Assembly: GCA_025451895.1 (NCBI GenBank)
Contig: JANWJP010000070.1
Coordinates: 1 to 34,540, forward strand
Direction of reading: 5' to 3'
Source: Robertmurraya sp.
GTDB taxonomy: Bacteria; Bacillota; Bacilli; Bacillales; Cytobacillaceae
DNA: 34,540 nt
Numbering within the stretch: the first letter of the stretch is position 1; each line of letters begins with the position of its first letter. Shown piece by piece: positions 7,566 to 20,672 of the stretch. The notes beneath the pieces are model-generated. The model was not told the origin of the DNA and searched no databases. It saw nothing but the letters and a program-made list of their open reading frames with translations. The translations under genes and the position numbers were made by a program.

Positions 7566-7627
7566 AAAAAAGTTGCTGCAAGTATTTTCATGATTCGCGA
7601 AGCTCATACTTGCCGGCAACTTTTTTT
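7566..7627 (-). terminator. Large bidirectional terminator after eutP
   Basis: AAAAAAGTTGC-TG-CAAGTA pairs with TACTTGC-CG-GCAACTTTTTTT across a loop of about 20 nt. A/U runs lie on both sides, so it can stop transcription from both panE and eutS-eutP. It begins 36 bp beyond the eutP stop. Confidence 0.8.
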
Positions 7628-7662: not shown

Positions 7663-8133
7663 TTATTTTATACTTTGCCCTGTCTCTTCCCACGGCATGA
7701 CATCGCCGTCTTCTCTGAGATGATTGAGAATTTTCCATATCCCTTCGCCGGTATAAGCACTTACATGAAAAATGGTTTTGCAACCGGCAAGACGCAGCCA
7801 TTGTTCAGCCTGCCACGGATTGGCGTTGGGACGGTCAATCTGGGTGACTATTCCAATTACCTCCCGATTGACACAAGGGGTTACATTGGGGGGATAAAGC
7901 GAGTAGGGCTCAACAGCGCTCAGAAGCAATCCGACCACGTCAGCTTCATAGGAAAATAAAGCGAGAGCCCGCCCTAGAAATTTATTTTCAGCATATTCTC
8001 CCGGTGTGTCGATAATTACATCAAAGTTGTTGACATATTGGGTCTTGTGATAAGTGATTTTTTCTCCTTTGAGAGCTTGCGTCAATGTTGTTTTGCCGCA
8101 TCCGCTCCGGCCCATTAAAATAATCTTTTTCAT
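7663..8133 (-). CDS. eutP: EutP/PduV-family small GTPase
   Basis: The protein has 156 residues. A P-loop is obvious at residues 8-16 (GRSGCGKTT). A second motif, VIDTPGEY, corresponds to G3 (DxxG-like), VTQIDRPNA to the G4 base-specificity motif, and VSAYTGEG to G5. This pattern and length match EutP/PduV, a Ras-like P-loop protein encoded with ethanolamine and propanediol microcompartments. EutP of Salmonella has been reported to have acetate kinase activity, while PduV has been linked to microcompartment positioning; which applies here is open. The start is 9 bp after eutS ends and has no clear ribosome site, so translation is probably coupled. No other eut or pdu gene is in this window. 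Confidence 0.88.
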   Translation of the reverse strand: MKKIILMGRSGCGKTTLTQALKGEKITYHKTQYVNNFDVIIDTPGEYAENKFLGRALALFSYEADVVGLLLSAVEPYSLYPPNVTPCVNREVIGIVTQIDRPNANPWQAEQWLRLAGCKTIFHVSAYTGEGIWKILNHLREDGDVMPWEETGQSIK

Positions 8134-8142
8134 AATTTTGTT

Positions 8143-8520
8143 TTACGTTCTCGTGATTTCACAGACAGTAAAATGAAGATTATTTTTGCAATAATCAATA
8201 ATGGCCCGGACGGCGGTTTCAACTTCTGAAAATCTTCCTGTGATAATTAATGTTCCGCTGAATCTGTCCAGAAACCCAAGGTCAACTCTTGCCCGTTTTG
8301 TTGCAATGTCACCGGCTATAATGGCTGTTTCTGCCGGTGTCATAGTAATAATTCCAATGGCTGCTTTTTCTTTTTCGTAGTCAATGGCAGGATCTAAACC
8401 TAATTTTTTGTATATGATTCCATCTGCATTTGCAATAATGTGGGCGATTGTTATTTGCTTGCCGGGAACAGTTTCCTGAATTATTCTCAGCTTTTCTTCC
8501 GGAGAAAGTTGATTTGCCAA
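8143..8520 (-). CDS. eutS: EutS/PduU-type microcompartment shell protein
   Basis: The protein has 125 residues from a TTG start at 8520, chosen because AAGGAG lies 9 bases upstream and the next residues align with family members. Recognisable segments are EEKLRIIQETVPGKQITIAHIIA, the YKKLGLDP stretch, AIGIITMTPAETAIIAGDIATKRARVDLGFLDRFSGTLIITG and a C-terminal VCEITRT. These match EutS, the circularly permuted single BMC-domain protein that forms a hexamer with a six-strand beta-barrel over the pore. It normally sits in the shell of the ethanolamine microcompartment. Here it is the first gene of a two-gene unit with eutP, and its usual partners (ammonia lyase, aldehyde dehydrogenase, EutM/L/N) are not nearby. 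Confidence 0.9.
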   Translation of the reverse strand: MANQLSPEEKLRIIQETVPGKQITIAHIIANADGIIYKKLGLDPAIDYEKEKAAIGIITMTPAETAIIAGDIATKRARVDLGFLDRFSGTLIITGRFSEVETAVRAIIDYCKNNLHFTVCEITRT

Positions 8521-8564
8521 TGTCAGCGGCTCCTTCCATGTTCTGATAATCTCTTATTATTATA

Positions 8565-8593
8565 ATGATATAATATTAGGGTGCTTATGTCGA
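8565..8593 (-). promoter_or_regulatory. Candidate SigA promoter for eutS-eutP
   Basis: On the minus strand TCGACA (8588-8593) and TATCAT (8565-8570) are separated by 17 bp, each one base from consensus. Transcription would begin near 8558, about 40 bases before the TTG start. Confidence 0.5.
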
Positions 8594-9425: not shown

Positions 9426-10016
9426 TCAATCGAGAATATTGCTGTCAAGAAGGGTTTCAAAAAAGTATCCGCTTGAAGTTGCACCCGGATCAATATGGCC
9501 GATGGATCTGTCGCCGAGATAAGAAGCCCGGCCCTTTGTTGCCTTCATATCTTTTGTGCTTTTTACGGCTTCCCAGATTGCATCTTTTGACAGCTTGCCT
9601 TCTTCCAATGCTTTTACGGCAGGAACCCATACGTCAACCATTGTTTTTTCACCCGGTACAGCCTTGCCGCGTTTTTGAACGCTTTCGAGTCCCGCTTTAA
9701 TAACGGCGTCCACACTGTTATCATCAGTTGCCACTTGTTTGGCCATTCCCATAAAAGCTGAGCCGTAAAGGGGACCGGCCGCACCGCCAACTGAGCTTAA
9801 GAGGGCCATCGCAACAGCTTTAAAAATGTCTTGAACAGATGAAAAATCCTGGCTGTTTAATTTGTCCTTGATCATTTTTGCCCCTCTTGCCATGTTGTTG
9901 CCATGGTCACCATCGCCGATAGCCGTGTCCAGGTCAGTTAAGTATTCTTTATTTTCGATGAGCTTATCTGCAAAGGACAGAAGCCATGCATTAGTATTTT
10001 CAACTGTCAGCATCAT
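9426..10016 (-). CDS. dhaL: Dihydroxyacetone kinase ADP/ATP-binding subunit DhaL
   Basis: The protein has 196 residues, typical for a free-standing DhaL. The nucleotide-Mg2+ motif TDLDTAIGDGDHGNN (residues about 27-41) has the Asp ladder that binds two magnesium ions. SSVGGAAGPLYGSAFMG (about 75-91) and the late GRASYLGDRSIGHIDPGATSS are the other DhaL signatures. DhaL transfers phosphate to dihydroxyacetone held covalently by DhaK, making DHAP for glycolysis. AAGGAG lies 8 bases before the first ATG; a second ATG follows at once. It starts 12 bp after dhaK ends, so the two are co-transcribed. In PTS-type systems DhaL-bound ADP is recharged by DhaM, but no dhaM is adjacent. Confidence 0.93.
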   Translation of the reverse strand: MMLTVENTNAWLLSFADKLIENKEYLTDLDTAIGDGDHGNNMARGAKMIKDKLNSQDFSSVQDIFKAVAMALLSSVGGAAGPLYGSAFMGMAKQVATDDNSVDAVIKAGLESVQKRGKAVPGEKTMVDVWVPAVKALEEGKLSKDAIWEAVKSTKDMKATKGRASYLGDRSIGHIDPGATSSGYFFETLLDSNILD

Positions 10017-10028
10017 ATCGGAGTCTCC

Positions 10029-11021
10029 TTATACCCATGCTGCGGTTTCAACCGGCTGATTCAGATACTCAACCCATTTTTCATCTTCCAGCTTAATTAA
10101 GGTGAGTGAAAGTCCGGCCATTTCAATTGAAGTCATATAGGAGGCAACTTTTTTATAGTCAAAAACAAGCCCTTCTTTACTTAAAATTTCCTGAACATCA
10201 TTCATAAAAATATACAGTTCCATTAACGGTGTTCCACCAAGTCCGTTGACGAACACACCATAACGGTCTCCTTTTTTCCAATTCAACTCTTCTTTTAAGC
10301 GGCTGACAAGCTCTTCGGCAATTTCTTTTGATGATTTGATCTTTTCCCGGCGATATCCCGGTTCACCATGAATTCCAATTCCATATTCCATTTCATCATC
10401 GGCGAGTTCAAAGCCCGGTTTTCCGACGGCAGGTACTGTTGCCGGCGAAATGGCCACCCCAACGGTTTTAATATTATCAATGACTTTTTCGCCCAATGCT
10501 TTGATTTCTTCTAAAGAAAAACCAGCTTCGGCAGCGGCACCCAAAATTTTGTGGACAAGAACGGTTCCTGCCACACCGCGCCGTCCGGCAGTATAAGTAC
10601 TGTCTTCAACGGCAATATCATCGTTAACAATAACTTTCTCTACTTTAATATCTTCCATTTCAGCCATTTCCATGGCCATTTCAAAGTTCATAACGTCTCC
10701 TGTGTAGTTTTTGATAATCAGCAGGACTCCTGCACCCTGGTCTGCCTTTTTAATCGCTTCAAATACCTGGTCTGGAGTAGGTGATGTAAAAACTTCACCG
10801 CAAACGGCTGCAGAAAGCATTCCTTTTCCGACAAAACCGGCATGAGACGGTTCGTGTCCGCTTCCTCCCCCGCTCACCAGGCCGACTTTGCCTTTTCCTT
10901 CATATTTGCGATAAATAACCCCGGTTTCGCCTAAACGTTCGACTAAGTCACTGTGTGTGAATGAAAGCCCTCTTAACATTTCCTCCCAAACATCGGCCGG
11001 ATTGTTAATAATTTTTTTCAT
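10029..11021 (-). CDS. dhaK: Dihydroxyacetone kinase substrate-binding subunit DhaK
   Basis: The protein has 330 residues, the normal DhaK size. GLVSGGGSGHEPSHAGFVG (residues 47-65) is the family signature around the substrate pocket. His218 in GIGIHGEPGYRREK matches the histidine that forms the hemiaminal bond to dihydroxyacetone. NYTGDVMNF and NGLGGTPLMELY are further conserved stretches. It is the first gene of dhaK-dhaL, with an AGGAGTG site before the ATG. A cre-like site lies 40-53 bp upstream, so CcpA repression on good sugars is likely. The substrate would come from glycerol oxidation or formaldehyde-assimilating routes. Confidence 0.94.
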   Translation of the reverse strand: MKKIINNPADVWEEMLRGLSFTHSDLVERLGETGVIYRKYEGKGKVGLVSGGGSGHEPSHAGFVGKGMLSAAVCGEVFTSPTPDQVFEAIKKADQGAGVLLIIKNYTGDVMNFEMAMEMAEMEDIKVEKVIVNDDIAVEDSTYTAGRRGVAGTVLVHKILGAAAEAGFSLEEIKALGEKVIDNIKTVGVAISPATVPAVGKPGFELADDEMEYGIGIHGEPGYRREKIKSSKEIAEELVSRLKEELNWKKGDRYGVFVNGLGGTPLMELYIFMNDVQEILSKEGLVFDYKKVASYMTSIEMAGLSLTLIKLEDEKWVEYLNQPVETAAWV

Positions 11022-16253: not shown

Positions 16254-17393
16254 ATGAAAAAGTTATTGATCATTGGCGGCGGTACTGCCGGTACGATGCT
16301 GGCTAATAAGCTTGCGAAAGGATTGGTGCAGGAAATTGAATCAGGAGAAGCGGAAATCACCATTGTCAGTAATAAAGACTTCCATGTTTATCAGCCCGGT
16401 TTCTTATATATTCCATTTCAATTAAAACGCCCCGAAGAATTAGTCCGCTCCATTTACGATGTGATCGACTCCAAAGTGCGAATCATCATTGATGAAGCTG
16501 TCAAGATCAATGAATCGGATAAAAGGGTGACCCTTCGTTCCGGCAGTATTTTATCCTATGATTATCTGATTCTTGCAACGGGCTCCCATCCGAAGCCGGA
16601 AATGATTCCCGGCCTTGAAGAAGCAGGCCACACTTTTTTTACTATGGATACAGCATTAAAACTGCAAAAAGCCATGAACGAATTCCAGGGTGGAAAAGTG
16701 GTTGTTGCCGTCAATCTTCCTCATAAATGTCCGGTTGCGCCGCTTGAGTTTGTAATGATGTTTGAGGATTGGGCCAGAAAGCGTGGAATCCGCAATAAAA
16801 CAGATATTACCTATGCCTATCCGTTAGCGGGACCATATGGTACAGCCTCTGTTGCCGCCATGGCGGAAAGAGAGTTCAAAGCACGCGATATTAAAATTGA
16901 AACTTTCTTCATCATGGAAAAAGTGGATGTGAAAAATAAAGAACTGGTCAGTTTGGATGGACGCAGACTTCCTTTTGATTTGCTTGTGGCAGTTCCGCCT
17001 CATACAGGGGCCGATCTGATCAAAGATAGCGGATTCGGAGATCGGGACGCCTGGCTGCCGACTGACCGCCATAAACTTACTCTGGAAAATCACCAATCTA
17101 TTTTTGTCATCGGTGACGCAACAAATCTTCCGATTAGTAAAGCGGGTTCAACGGCCCATTTTGAATCGGAAATCCTTGCCGAAAATCTTATGGACATGGT
17201 TCGGGGAGGACAAGGCAATAAGCAATATACAGGAAAAGTCTTTTGTTTTATTGAAACCGGTTTAGACAAGGCTACCTATATTTCGTTTGATTATGAAAAC
17301 CCTCCCAAACCGGTGACGCCTTCAAAAATGGTTCATTTTGCCAAAGTTGGATATAACAATATGCACTGGGTGAATTTGAAAGGAATCATGTAA
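16254..17393 (+). CDS. Sulfide:quinone oxidoreductase-like flavoprotein
   Basis: The protein has 379 residues. An FAD-binding Rossmann motif opens it (LLIIGGGTAGTMLANKL), a second ATG motif lies near 107-110 (LILATGSHP), and the late VFVIGDATNLP is the FAD ribityl-contact motif. There are only two cysteines: Cys159 in NLPHKCPVAPLEF and Cys331 in KVFCFIETG. Both sit where the redox-active pair of sulfide:quinone oxidoreductases is found. The enzyme should oxidise H2S at the inner face of the membrane, reduce menaquinone and release persulfide. The C-terminal part ends in short amphipathic stretches suited to membrane association. GGAGGAG precedes the ATG. The DUF1641 gene follows 15 bp later, a pairing common for this enzyme class. 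Confidence 0.87.
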   Translation: MKKLLIIGGGTAGTMLANKLAKGLVQEIESGEAEITIVSNKDFHVYQPGFLYIPFQLKRPEELVRSIYDVIDSKVRIIIDEAVKINESDKRVTLRSGSILSYDYLILATGSHPKPEMIPGLEEAGHTFFTMDTALKLQKAMNEFQGGKVVVAVNLPHKCPVAPLEFVMMFEDWARKRGIRNKTDITYAYPLAGPYGTASVAAMAEREFKARDIKIETFFIMEKVDVKNKELVSLDGRRLPFDLLVAVPPHTGADLIKDSGFGDRDAWLPTDRHKLTLENHQSIFVIGDATNLPISKAGSTAHFESEILAENLMDMVRGGQGNKQYTGKVFCFIETGLDKATYISFDYENPPKPVTPSKMVHFAKVGYNNMHWVNLKGIM

Positions 17394-17408
17394 AAAGGGG
17401 GCGGGAAC

Positions 17409-18014
17409 ATGTCGACGGAAACAAATGTGTATGAAAATATCAGTCCTGAACTGCGGGAAGAATTGGCCGAAATGCTCCCGGTATTTGTCCGGTTGTTAAA
17501 TTTAATAAAAATGGCCGGCGATGCGATGACAGAAGAAACAGCCGCACATTTGACAGTTAAATTGGAGCGGGCGGCAAATTTGCTCCAGGTTCTGGATGAT
17601 GAAAGACTTCCGCGGTTATTAAATGGTCTATTGGAAAAAGGAGATATACTGGTTTCGCTTTTAAATAAAGTCACTGTTCTTGAGGAAAACGGCACTTTAG
17701 ATAAACTGCTCGAATTGGTTCAAGCACTCGGTACGGTAACAGATGCTTTAACAGAGGAAAGCGTCAAGCATTTGACCGGGAAATTGCTTCCGCTTGTGGA
17801 AACAGGCGATCAATTGTTGTCTTCCAGTGTGGTGAAAAAAGCCCCCCAAATTCTGGATGCGGTCGATAAAACCGTTTTGGAAATGAAAAGCCGGAAGACA
17901 GAACAATTGTCTGTATTTGGTCTTCTCGGCCTCTTAAAGAAAAAAGAAGTACAGGAGGCTGTGCAATTTGGTACAGCACTGTTAAAAAATATCTCGAATT
18001 CACAAACAAAATAG
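17409..18014 (+). CDS. DUF1641 protein, partner of sulfide:quinone oxidoreductase
   Basis: The protein has 201 residues, mostly helical with regular Leu spacing and no cysteine or membrane helix. It contains two similar halves: TEETAAHLTVKLERAANLLQ near 46-65 is echoed by TEESVKHLTGKLLPLVETGD about 76 residues later, so the protein is probably an internal duplication. The pattern is that of DUF1641, found next to SQR-type or formate dehydrogenase-type flavoproteins in Bacillaceae. Its biochemical role is unknown; a scaffold or membrane adaptor for the flavoprotein is an inference from its constant neighbour. The start follows GGGGGCGGG and lies 15 bp after the flavoprotein gene. Confidence 0.8.
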   Translation: MSTETNVYENISPELREELAEMLPVFVRLLNLIKMAGDAMTEETAAHLTVKLERAANLLQVLDDERLPRLLNGLLEKGDILVSLLNKVTVLEENGTLDKLLELVQALGTVTDALTEESVKHLTGKLLPLVETGDQLLSSSVVKKAPQILDAVDKTVLEMKSRKTEQLSVFGLLGLLKKKEVQEAVQFGTALLKNISNSQTK

Positions 18015-18026
18015 AAGGGATCTGTC

Positions 18027-18818
18027 ATGATGGAATACAGCATCGGGTTTCTGGTTGTTCTTTTCCTAATTGGTGCAGTCGGTTCCGCAATTTCAGGGAT
18101 GGTTGGAATTGGCGGGACGATTATAAAATATCCAATGCTGCTTTATATTCCTCCTTTAATGGGGCTGACAGCATTTACTGCACAAGAGGTTTCGGCAATC
18201 AGCGCAGTACAGGTGTTTTTTGCAACATTGGCCGGTATGTTTGTCTTTAAGAAAGGCGGTCTTATTAACGGGAAGCTGGTCGCATATATGGGGATTTCGA
18301 TTATCATCGGAAGTTTTGCCGGCGGCTACGGTTCAAAGTTTTTGCCAAACGATGCCATCAATCTTGTTTACGCTGTTTTCGCTTTGATTGCTGCGATTAT
18401 GATGCTGTTTCCAAAAAAGGGTGATGAAGCCGGTGAAGATACAAAGGGTGATTTCAATAAATTCATAGCCGTTTCATCAGCTCTAATCATCGGGATTGCT
18501 TCAGGTATTGTAGGAGCCGCAGGAGCTTTTATCACCGTTCCTGTCATGCTTGTCCTCCTGAAAATACCAACTAGGGTTGCTATCGGTTCCTCTTTGGCAA
18601 TTACTTTTATATCGTCCATCGGCTCCACAACGGGAAAACTGCTGGGAGGCCATATGCTTCTCGTTCCGTCCCTCGTCATGGTCGTTGCCAGTTTGATTGC
18701 CGCGCCGCTTGGAGCAAAACTGAGTACCCGTCTCAACACGAAAGTTTTACAGCATATTTTACTATTCTTAATTTGCGGTACCGTCTTAAAAATTTGGTAT
18801 GAAATTTTGTTTACGTAA
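18027..18818 (+). CDS. TauE/SafE-family anion exporter
   Basis: The protein has 263 residues with eight hydrophobic helices in two halves. The family's repeated glycine-rich segment appears as GAVGSAISGMVGIGGTIIKYPML near 14-36 and GIASGIVGAAGAFITVPVML near 154-173. These proteins move sulfite, sulfonates or thiosulfate. In this cluster the likely cargo is sulfite made by the persulfide dioxygenase, matching YrkJ of B. subtilis and TauE of Staphylococcus cst clusters. AAGGGA lies before the ATG at 18027, with an alternative ATG one codon later. The start is 12 bp after the DUF1641 stop. Confidence 0.88.
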   Translation: MMEYSIGFLVVLFLIGAVGSAISGMVGIGGTIIKYPMLLYIPPLMGLTAFTAQEVSAISAVQVFFATLAGMFVFKKGGLINGKLVAYMGISIIIGSFAGGYGSKFLPNDAINLVYAVFALIAAIMMLFPKKGDEAGEDTKGDFNKFIAVSSALIIGIASGIVGAAGAFITVPVMLVLLKIPTRVAIGSSLAITFISSIGSTTGKLLGGHMLLVPSLVMVVASLIAAPLGAKLSTRLNTKVLQHILLFLICGTVLKIWYEILFT

Positions 18819-18885
18819 CAGAAGAGAGTCAGTGCTGATCTATTTTAAGCGGCATGAATTTAGCAGAACAAAGGTGTGGGAATAT

Positions 18886-19455
18886 ATGAAAAGTGACACG
18901 AAGAGGTTGATTCTTGATTGCTCAGATTTTGACTGCCCGATGGTTCTCGCTCAATTAAAGGAAGCTCTGGAGCGGGTTGAACCGGGGCGGACGGTGGAGG
19001 TGATAACTGATTCTGAACCGAGATTTCAGATGATTCTGAAATTGTGGGCGAAGGAGACGAATGATTGTTATTATGATTTTTTTGAAAAAGATAAGCGAAT
19101 CCATCATTTTATAAAGAAGGCTTCTCCGGACATCAGGAGTCATCATGAACAGCACCCGCATGTCATTACAAACACACAGCTGAAGCAGCTTCTTTCAGGA
19201 GGGGAAAAGATTCATCTCCTGGATGTAAGGGAAGATATTGAATTTATGATTGGCCATGTGCCGGAAGCTGTCAATGTGCCGTTGTCTGATTTTACTGCAC
19301 GTATTTCCGCCTTTCCGAGGGAAGAAACGTATTATTTAATCTGCCGGACCGGAAATCGCAGTGATTTTGCCTGTAAATATATGAAAATGCTGGGATATGG
19401 AAATGTCTATAACGTTTTGCCCGGCATGTATCAATGGGACGGCGACGTCATTTAA
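18886..19455 (+). CDS. TusA-rhodanese fusion sulfurtransferase (YrkF/CstA-like)
   Basis: The protein has 189 residues. The ATG at 18886 is preferred (AAAGGTG about 10 bases upstream); longer in-frame versions run back into the exporter gene. Residues about 5-75 form a TusA domain with LDCSDFDCPMVLAQLKEAL, where Cys17 in CPM is the carrier cysteine. Residues about 95-189 form a rhodanese domain: HLLDVREDIEFMIGHVPEAVNVP, then LICRTGNRSDFACKYM with active-site Cys153 in a CRTGNRS loop. The fusion lets persulfide sulfur pass between two cysteines of one chain. B. subtilis YrkF and the N-terminal part of Staphylococcus CstA have the same domains. It is separated from the exporter by 67 bp and from the dioxygenase by 83 bp, still on the same strand without a terminator. 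Confidence 0.9.
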   Translation: MKSDTKRLILDCSDFDCPMVLAQLKEALERVEPGRTVEVITDSEPRFQMILKLWAKETNDCYYDFFEKDKRIHHFIKKASPDIRSHHEQHPHVITNTQLKQLLSGGEKIHLLDVREDIEFMIGHVPEAVNVPLSDFTARISAFPREETYYLICRTGNRSDFACKYMKMLGYGNVYNVLPGMYQWDGDVI

Positions 19456-19538
19456 ATCGGTTGTTGTTTTCGTTTATGGGAGAAGGGAAGATGTTCTATC
19501 TGTAAAAAGAATTAAAAATTTTTTTGGAGGGATAAATA

Positions 19539-20672
19539 ATGGCAATTACCGGCATTTCTGCGGAAAAATTAAACCAGTGGATTATTGATGAGGAACCTTT
19601 ATTTATACTTGATATTCGCAATGAAGAAGATTTTAATGATTGGAAAATTGACGGCGGAAACATCGAGTTTTTAAATGTTCCTTATTTTGACCTGATTGAC
19701 GGGGTCGGGGAAATCATTGATAAACTTCCAACTGACAAAAAGCTTCTTGTAGTCTGTGCCAAGGAGGGCTCCTCAAAGCTGATTGCCGAGCACATTGCCA
19801 ATGAGGGCCGGGATGTTTCGTACCTGCTTGGCGGCATGAAGGCATGGAGCGAATATCTGTATACTGTTCCTGTTTATCAGGATGAAAATATGAAAGTGTA
19901 CCAGTTGATCCGTGTCGGAAAAGGCTGCTTGTCCTATATGGTTGTTTCCGGAAAAGAAGCTCTGGTAGTTGATCCCCTAAGATTTACAGATGAATACAAA
20001 GCCCTTGCTGCGAAAGAAAATGTGACAATTACTCATATTGTTGACTCCCATCTCCATGCTGATCATATTTCCGGAGGTCATAAACTCGCGTTGGAAACCG
20101 GAGCGAAATATTACGTCATGAAAAGTGAAGGGGCAATCTTCGAATTTGAACCGCTGGAAAATTACGAAAGGATCGAATTTGAAAAAGTTAATTTAGAAGT
20201 ATTGGCTGTAAAAACCCCCGGTCATACTCCCGGAAGTGTTTCCTTTTTTGTAAATAACCGTCTTCTGTTTTCCGGTGATACGATTTTCGTAAGCGGTTTG
20301 GGGCGTCCGGACCTTGGCGGCAAAGCGAGAGAGTGGGCAAAGGATTTATATAATACGGTGTACAGTAAAGTATCTCAATTTGCCGATGATGTTCTTGTTC
20401 TTCCGGGCCATTACGGCAGTTTTACGGAGGAATTTAATGATCAGGGTTTTGTCGGCAGTCTTTTAGGGGAAATTCGCAAAAATAATGACATGATGGAAGG
20501 GAAAACAATGGATGAGTTTGTTGACGAGGTGGCAAAATCCGCATCACAGGTAACACCGCCAAATTACCAGGATATTATCGCTATTAATAAAGGTATCAAA
20601 ACTGTCACTGAAGAAACCATGCAGGAACTCGAAATCGGCCCGAACCGTTGCGCTGTTCACCATACCAATTAA
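19539..20672 (+). CDS. Rhodanese-MBL fusion persulfide dioxygenase
   Basis: The protein has 377 residues. Residues 1-105 are a rhodanese domain with DIRNEEDFNDW and active Cys73 in VVCAKEGSS. Residues about 118-330 are a metallo-beta-lactamase domain: HLHADH (171-176), His229 in TPGHTPGS, and Asp247 in FSGDTIFVSGLGRPDLGG, the non-haem iron site of ETHE1-type dioxygenases. PGHYG near 287 supplies a further ligand. It should oxidise persulfide sulfur with O2 to sulfite. The rhodanese lies before the lactamase domain, the reverse of Staphylococcus CstB, whose lactamase domain is N-terminal. TTGGAGG precedes the ATG, and a terminator follows. It is the last gene of the cluster. Confidence 0.9.
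   Translation: MAITGISAEKLNQWIIDEEPLFILDIRNEEDFNDWKIDGGNIEFLNVPYFDLIDGVGEIIDKLPTDKKLLVVCAKEGSSKLIAEHIANEGRDVSYLLGGMKAWSEYLYTVPVYQDENMKVYQLIRVGKGCLSYMVVSGKEALVVDPLRFTDEYKALAAKENVTITHIVDSHLHADHISGGHKLALETGAKYYVMKSEGAIFEFEPLENYERIEFEKVNLEVLAVKTPGHTPGSVSFFVNNRLLFSGDTIFVSGLGRPDLGGKAREWAKDLYNTVYSKVSQFADDVLVLPGHYGSFTEEFNDQGFVGSLLGEIRKNNDMMEGKTMDEFVDEVAKSASQVTPPNYQDIIAINKGIKTVTEETMQELEIGPNRCAVHHTN

Follow-up and report, generated by a model that had tools for sequence, protein, structure and literature searches.

A detached pduU-pduV-type gene pair in a Robertmurraya draft genome, a probable satellite of a propanediol-utilisation microcompartment locus

A two-gene pduU-pduV-type locus in the genome of a Robertmurraya sp. 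is probably a satellite locus of a propanediol-utilisation microcompartment, encoding a minor shell tile and its PduV partner. The 34,540-nt stretch of DNA analysed (the window) is the entire contig C70 of a draft genome of 216 contigs, estimated at 94.86% completeness. A preliminary description made from the window had called the pair an orphan, perhaps the remnant of a lost eut operon. Neither idea is supported once the other contigs are considered: C183 carries a pdu operon that encodes diol dehydratase, its reactivase, PduP, PduO and shell proteins, and C100 a pduS-pduT-type pair. Since the main microcompartment operon lies elsewhere in the genome, the pair is better described as a satellite than as an orphan. 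Support for this reading comes from the intact genes, the partner operon without pduU and pduV, the recurrence of such pairs, purifying selection, and promoter-like and terminator-like sites. The features of the locus are:

8565 to 8593, minus strand: promoter-like site TCGACA-17-TATCAT, sigma-70-like (consensus scan, 10/12)
8530 to 8537, minus strand: ribosome-binding-like GGAAGGAG before the TTG start (read off the sequence)
8143 to 8520, minus strand: pduU-type gene, permuted EutS/PduU-family BMC-H shell protein, 125 aa, TTG start (PF00936)
8365 to 8394, minus strand: IDY loop insert of PduU, approximately residues 43-52, clade mark (pattern LGLxPx[IV]DY)
7663 to 8133, minus strand: pduV-type gene, PduV/EutP-family small G protein, 156 aa (PF10662)
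8089 to 8112, minus strand: PduV P-loop GRSGCGKT (alignment; G8, G13 and K14 invariant in 30 rows)
7834 to 7845, minus strand: PduV G4 motif TQID (pattern; TKxD in most PduV rows)
7690 to 7710, minus strand: PduV C-terminal tail motif DGDxxPW (pattern; low AlphaFold confidence)
7566 to 7626, minus strand: terminator-like hairpin with an A-run and a T-run on its flanks, between the convergent pduV and panE-like genes (fold)

As the preliminary description had it, both genes are intact. They have the coordinates given there and lie on the minus strand; the pduU-type gene is upstream, with a gap of 9 bp. Its product scores 54.1 bits against PF00936 (cut-off 24.5), and the pduV-type product 174 bits against PF10662 (cut-off 21), placing the latter in the PduV/EutP family. 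The earlier eutS-eutP label is too specific. In NCBIfam, the first protein is nearest to the EutS model but under its cut-off (107.7 vs 123) and the second is nearest to the EutP/PduV model but slightly under (132.3 vs 138.35), while its score against the EutP acetate kinase equivalog (NF012011) is just 42.7 bits with a cut-off of 258; PduU/PduV-type is therefore the better label. PDB sequence matches of the PduU-type protein are 4axi, 3cgi, and 3ia0; the 3cgi PduU sequence, unlike the window's, has no IDY loop. The AlphaFold monomer model of PduU (mean pLDDT 89.5) has a helix of lower confidence at its N-terminus and places the IDY loop in a block of lower confidence (73). In a Foldseek search with this model, chains of 4axi, CutR, EutS, and PduU take the first 15 places (TMq 0.74-0.81), as expected for a permuted BMC-H fold. 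The PduV model (mean pLDDT 88.1) matches IF2, Era, and Rho/Ras-like folds.

The pair had also been credited with its own promoter and terminator, and sites of both kinds are present. The promoter-like site, 45-73 bases upstream of the TTG codon, has a score that 9 of 200 approximate shuffles reach; for the hairpin that follows pduV the fold z is -3.58, and none of 200 shuffles was equally stable. In a search for a regulatory word common to the promoters of pduU, pduA, pduS, ackA, the pocR-type kinase gene, ADH, and dhaK, made without a chance control, the longest shared strings were of 10-13 bases. On the contig, 7.6 kb holding TetR, MMPL, and panE-like genes separate the pair from one end, and 26 kb separate it from the other. 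Genes for dihydroxyacetone kinase subunits (dhaK-dhaL, 9426-11021) lie upstream on the same strand, and a possible sulfur-type cluster occupies 16254-20672 (a pyridine nucleotide-disulphide oxidoreductase, a DUF1641 protein, a TauE exporter, and a rhodanese/metallo-beta-lactamase protein). There is indeed no other shell gene in the window: whole-genome searches gave no further BMC-domain, EutN-type, or EutP-type match on C70.

Genome-wide there are eight BMC-domain matches: five on C183, two within one PduT-type gene on C100, and the one in the window. The window's PduV match is the only strong one, with two weak others (26 and 20.8 bits). C183 (23 kb) carries a B12-dependent pdu operon without pduU and pduV. 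Gene names on C183 follow the nearest model or the position (the latter for D, which had no search of its own; NCBIfam gave no match for H). The genes are of types pduA, B, C, D, E, G, H, N, O, and P, with a K-like shell gene, a second gene of A/J type, and an EutJ-type gene, together with ackA, a PocR-domain histidine kinase, a response regulator, an iron alcohol dehydrogenase, and a weakly flavoprotein-like gene. The shell types represented are BMC-H, PduB-type BMC-T, and BMC-P. PduL was not found in the draft genome, so the operon is not the textbook set. A search for a glycyl-radical diol dehydratase in this genome gave only a PFL-like protein on C169, matching at 24-40% identity. A second detached pair, of pduS-pduT type, is found on C100 (1957-3851 of locus L011, G000:C100), about 2 kb from the contig end, and is 65-69% identical to the Clostridium ljungdahlii and C. 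ragsdalei copies. A small ORF at that contig end resembles an IS200-type transposase. The preliminary description had named an operon elsewhere in the genome without exactly these two genes as the observation that would tell against it, and this is essentially what C183 offers: it has neither pduU nor pduV, although pduS and pduT are detached as well and PduL was not found.

Arrangements of this general kind are already published, both as stand-alone pduU-pduV clusters (PMC7593272) and as satellite loci (PMC4207490). The latter were defined in 2014 (Axen, PMC4207490) and surveyed in 2021 (Sutter, PMC8217296); like the locus described here, they hold a contiguous subset of shell genes in a genome with a full BMC locus elsewhere. 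C70 has the BMC-H or BMC-P gene alone that the 2014 wording calls for (one PF00936 match, no PF03319 match), and with a single shell gene contiguity is given; because pduV is itself BMC-related, the strict wording would make the locus “satellite-like.” A PduV/EutP gene was reported near 57% of satellite-like loci (PMC4207490). In their available portions, both surveys treat satellites generally and do not single out the PduU-PduV clade described below.

A close published parallel is Acetobacterium woodii, which, according to the accessible text of PMC7593272, has two-gene pduU-pduV clusters (clusters 2 and 3) outside a pdu cluster without them. As in the present genome, that pdu cluster is accompanied by a two-component system. 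Its cluster 3 pduU is 375 bp long, a size like that in the window's clade, as far as the description goes; the cluster was absent from the best 80 of 171 related loci. A. woodii also has two stand-alone clusters, whereas the present genome has one pair. Transcription of the A. woodii pairs was 20-30 fold weaker than that of the main cluster, and the study questioned whether the pairs are important for microcompartment formation on the substrates tested (PMC7593272).

The window's PduU belongs to a distinct lineage, marked by the IDY loop. The pattern LGLxPx[IV]DY is found in the window and in 22 of 80 named loci (the best 80 of the 171 related loci), and in none of the other 58. In a concatenated PduU-PduV tree of 68 rows, from which the insert columns had been removed, the 23 clade rows were joined with SH-aLRT 100 (a quick search with SH-aLRT only and with long-branch warnings). 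Stand-alone and linked states require at least three changes on this tree, with L053 labelled stand-alone and L042 and L046 left out.

Linkage was scored as a tblastn match in the flanks to any of 25 reference proteins taken from the genome of the window (27 if PduU and PduV are included). A response-regulator match alone was not counted, so that L046-L050, with such a match about 8 kb upstream, are stand-alone. By this measure, 14 of the 22 named clade loci have no other microcompartment gene in their available flanks, and in 11 of the 14 no less than 3.4 kb is clear in each direction; L042, L046, and L053 are near contig ends, one flank of L053 being just 0.5 kb. None of the 14 genomes has a further BMC-domain match on the contig of the pair (the longest being 492 kb). 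Thirteen have a BMC-domain gene on other contigs and 11 a BMC-P gene, so that a shell would normally be available to stand-alone pairs; the three without a BMC-P match (G068, G072, and G073) are all MAGs. Outside the clade, 54 of the 58 loci have a microcompartment-gene match, the others (L059, L081, L088, L091) being on contigs of 3.9-10.5 kb.

A sigma-70-like site of at least 9/12 precedes 11 of 13 stand-alone copies vs 1 of 8 linked ones, but only six of the 13 stand-alone sites have scores reached by at most 10 of 200 shuffles (again approximate), and L047-L050 are near copies of one another. Among the neighbours listed (parts of those of L050, L051, L053, and the window lay outside the list), none is conserved beside stand-alone pairs across lineages. 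Near relatives do have common flanks, such as a run of genes in L039, L040, and L043. A lacto-N-biose-phosphorylase-family gene, identified by domain search for L048, is directly downstream of pduV in L047, L048, and L050 (10930-13071 in L047 and L048).

The preliminary description had raised the idea of a retained pair, and had proposed looking for recurrence in related genomes with low dN/dS. The idea is supported by such recurrence in the 14 stand-alone loci, which are under purifying selection: in nine comparisons per gene between close stand-alone relatives, omega was 0.00-0.06 for PduU and 0.01-0.07 for PduV. Values in two comparisons of linked copies were much the same (0.04-0.10). These are simple Nei-Gojobori estimates from related pairs that overlap in part, dS being close to 2 in some of them; comparisons involving the window were saturated and gave no omega.

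The microcompartments that these pairs might serve are varied. At least five of the eight linked clade members (L044, L045, L052, L057, and L058) are in operons with a glycyl-radical enzyme and its activase, identified by domain search for L044 and L057 and by BLAST likeness for L045, L052, and L058. These operons, which we take to be GRM5-like and GRM3-like, thus have PduU and PduV of the window's clade, whereas the window's partner operon has the B12-dependent PduC and PduE. Loci of these kinds have been described (PMC3557285, PMC12016505, in the sections available). The remote operons of stand-alone genomes (12 regions taken, with ORFs typed in eight) also differ: PduCDE-type in RGIG9057, glycyl-radical in C. 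ljungdahlii, and aldolase-type in Anaerobium acetethylicum and the Lapin MAG G070, as judged by protein starts like the L044 Aldolase_II. In C. ljungdahlii, choline and 1,2-propanediol microcompartments are reported to be inducible (PMC12016505). C. ragsdalei has an additional EutS-sized match at an eut-like locus (C3:72876).

The clade's PduV proteins are in part altered as well. The window's protein has a conventional P-loop (GxxxxGK[ST], as GRSGCGKT). The [NT]KxD motif confers guanine specificity on canonical GTPases, and here it is replaced by TQID, which weakens any claim that the protein is a strict GTPase but does not affect its PduV membership. TQ instead of TK occurs in 14 of the 23 clade rows and was not seen in 45 other PduV rows (the pattern missed one of these, which the alignment reads as TKKD). 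In L046-L051 the motif is TQIN; with both its lysine and its aspartate replaced, guanine specificity may be lost in these proteins. The DGDxxPW tail is found in 11 of the 23 clade rows and in none of the 45 others.

Detachment is rare in the phylum as sampled and frequent in the IDY clade. Among 249 genomes across the phylum, including the present one, 41 have a PduU/EutS match: 25 strong (at least 117 bits) and 16 weak only (at most 31.6 bits). Outside the present genome there are 26 strong places in 24 genomes, none with the IDY pattern, and 24 of the 26 have other microcompartment genes nearby (in flanks of about 10 kb each, or less at contig ends); in the clade, 14 of 22 loci are stand-alone. 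In G181 the nearest other BMC gene is 16 kb from the pair on the same contig. The pair at L163 (G142:C87:1-7764) opens a 7.7 kb contig, and the genome, 99% complete, has no BMC-domain match besides the shell gene of this pair; given its position, this may be a true orphan or an assembly gap. A set of 60 relatives yielded ten full-length PduU/EutS matches, at 52-57% identity, and one partial match; the neighbourhoods of the ten all include further microcompartment-gene matches. In the same-family Bacillaceae bacterium Marseille-Q3522 (L071), the order is pduU-pduV-pocR-pduABCDEGHK.

The pair was probably acquired horizontally from Clostridia, to judge from a Clostridium-like pair on a Bacillaceae-like contig. 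PduU is 72% identical to the C. ljungdahlii and C. ragsdalei proteins and PduV 74-77%; identities to L071 are 53% and 43%, and PduU has 52-57% identity to the ten relatives of the family or order in which its match is full. By comparison, a radical-SAM protein encoded in the window is 64-67% identical to those of six same-family genomes and 38-43% to five others; in G014, a seventh genome of the family, the match is just 32%. Among the loci compared, a biased set, C183 PduB, C, E, and G are nearest to L071 and PduD to L096 and then L071, while the C100 PduS and PduT are nearest to C. ljungdahlii or C. ragsdalei. The donor branch would be one whose PduU and PduV also occur in glycyl-radical (GRM) operons, with the pair now partnered with a B12-type pdu operon.

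As a satellite, the locus would supply PduU hexamers that enter the shell built from the C183 operon as a minor tile, and PduV would dock on the outward PduU barrel and act on the organelle from outside. The suggestion that a PduU tile and PduV are added to the C183 shell draws on the available text of several Salmonella papers. PduU and PduV make contact in two-hybrid assays, the PduU barrel being the predicted dock and PduV thought to be outside the shell (PMC4315436); PduV-eGFP gives organelle-like patches (PMC7181861); and PduV did not co-localise with the cargo protein PduE when shell and cargo were split (PMC9132943). Both proteins are low in copy number in the Salmonella organelle, with about 130 PduU monomers and 7 PduV, the latter close to background according to the authors (PMC7181861). 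They belong to the same families as those of the window, but their genes are within the pdu operon there and detached here (PMC4315436, PMC7181861, PMC9132943). In Salmonella, EutP of the eut system appeared cytosolic, and EutS and PduU appeared dispensable for assembly (PMC12487888). Positioning or partitioning of the organelle is the leading candidate for what PduV does, tentative as that assignment is. A housekeeping-type promoter of its own would free the pair from the diol-induced control of the main operon, allowing independent expression.

Several observations sit uneasily with the satellite reading: the genome is a draft, in which C70 might lie near C183; no PduL was found; the A. woodii pairs are poorly transcribed; EutP appeared cytosolic; and G072 has no other BMC gene that could be found. 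One alternative is a substrate-specific accessory, in which PduU alters shell permeability for one metabolite and PduV/EutP is an acetate kinase, both expressed on that substrate only. The A. woodii authors proposed such a role for clusters 2 and 3 (PMC7593272), EutP is reported as an acetate kinase (cited in PMC12487888), and dhaK and dhaL adjoin the pair in the window. The window's protein is far below the EutP equivalog cut-off, however, an acetate/propionate kinase gene already lies beside the C183 operon, and stand-alone lineages have no common neighbour among those listed, making this rather unlikely. An assembly effect, in which a closed chromosome would show the pair close to the pdu operon, is also unlikely. 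The draft state, the 7.6 kb separating the pair from a contig end, the mere 23 kb of C183, and the 16 kb gap in G181 would all be consistent with it, but a comparison of five contig ends (the far end of C100 lay outside it) found no overlap, neither flank has another BMC gene, and contigs of named genomes with a stand-alone copy, as long as 492 kb, have no BMC gene besides it.

A shell-independent job, with PduU and PduV as a minimal scaffold or polar marker without a microcompartment, is suggested by G072 and G142, which have the pair and no other BMC-domain gene that was found, G142 at 99% completeness. L050, the G072 locus, is a stand-alone pair in a MAG with no other PF00936 or PF03319 match (G072 being the genome searched for BMC-P on this point), and a check for a shell operon there located the flanking gene in a different gene order. 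Yet G072 has no completeness figure, the G142 pair is outside the IDY clade and at the very start of its contig, and 13 of the 14 genomes with the clade's stand-alone pair have other BMC genes; we consider this very unlikely. Decay of a lost eut or GRM operon has in its favor the linked clade relatives, at least five, in GRM-type operons, and the window's genome, in which no such operon was found. It is the least credible of these alternatives, given two intact ORFs with their own promoter-like and terminator-like sites, and the low omega between stand-alone relatives.

Beyond the satellite reading there is a more speculative idea, which we regard as doubtful but worth stating: PduU-PduV might be an exchangeable outer-surface adaptor module with its own history, the IDY lineage (in part with the altered PduV nucleotide motif and DGDxxPW tail) having left GRM-type operons, gained its own promoter, spread horizontally, and come to serve any host microcompartment, whether glycyl-radical, aldolase-type, or B12-dependent, for example in positioning. 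No description of the IDY clade, its GRM relatives, or the PduV motif changes was found in the available portions of the literature searched; they are possibly new, although this is no proof of their being unpublished. A detached pair like this one, found on a single contig, calls for a search of the whole genome before it is called an orphan. With its own promoter-like site, it also makes the function of PduV and the PduU barrel testable by deleting two genes, leaving the main operon untouched.
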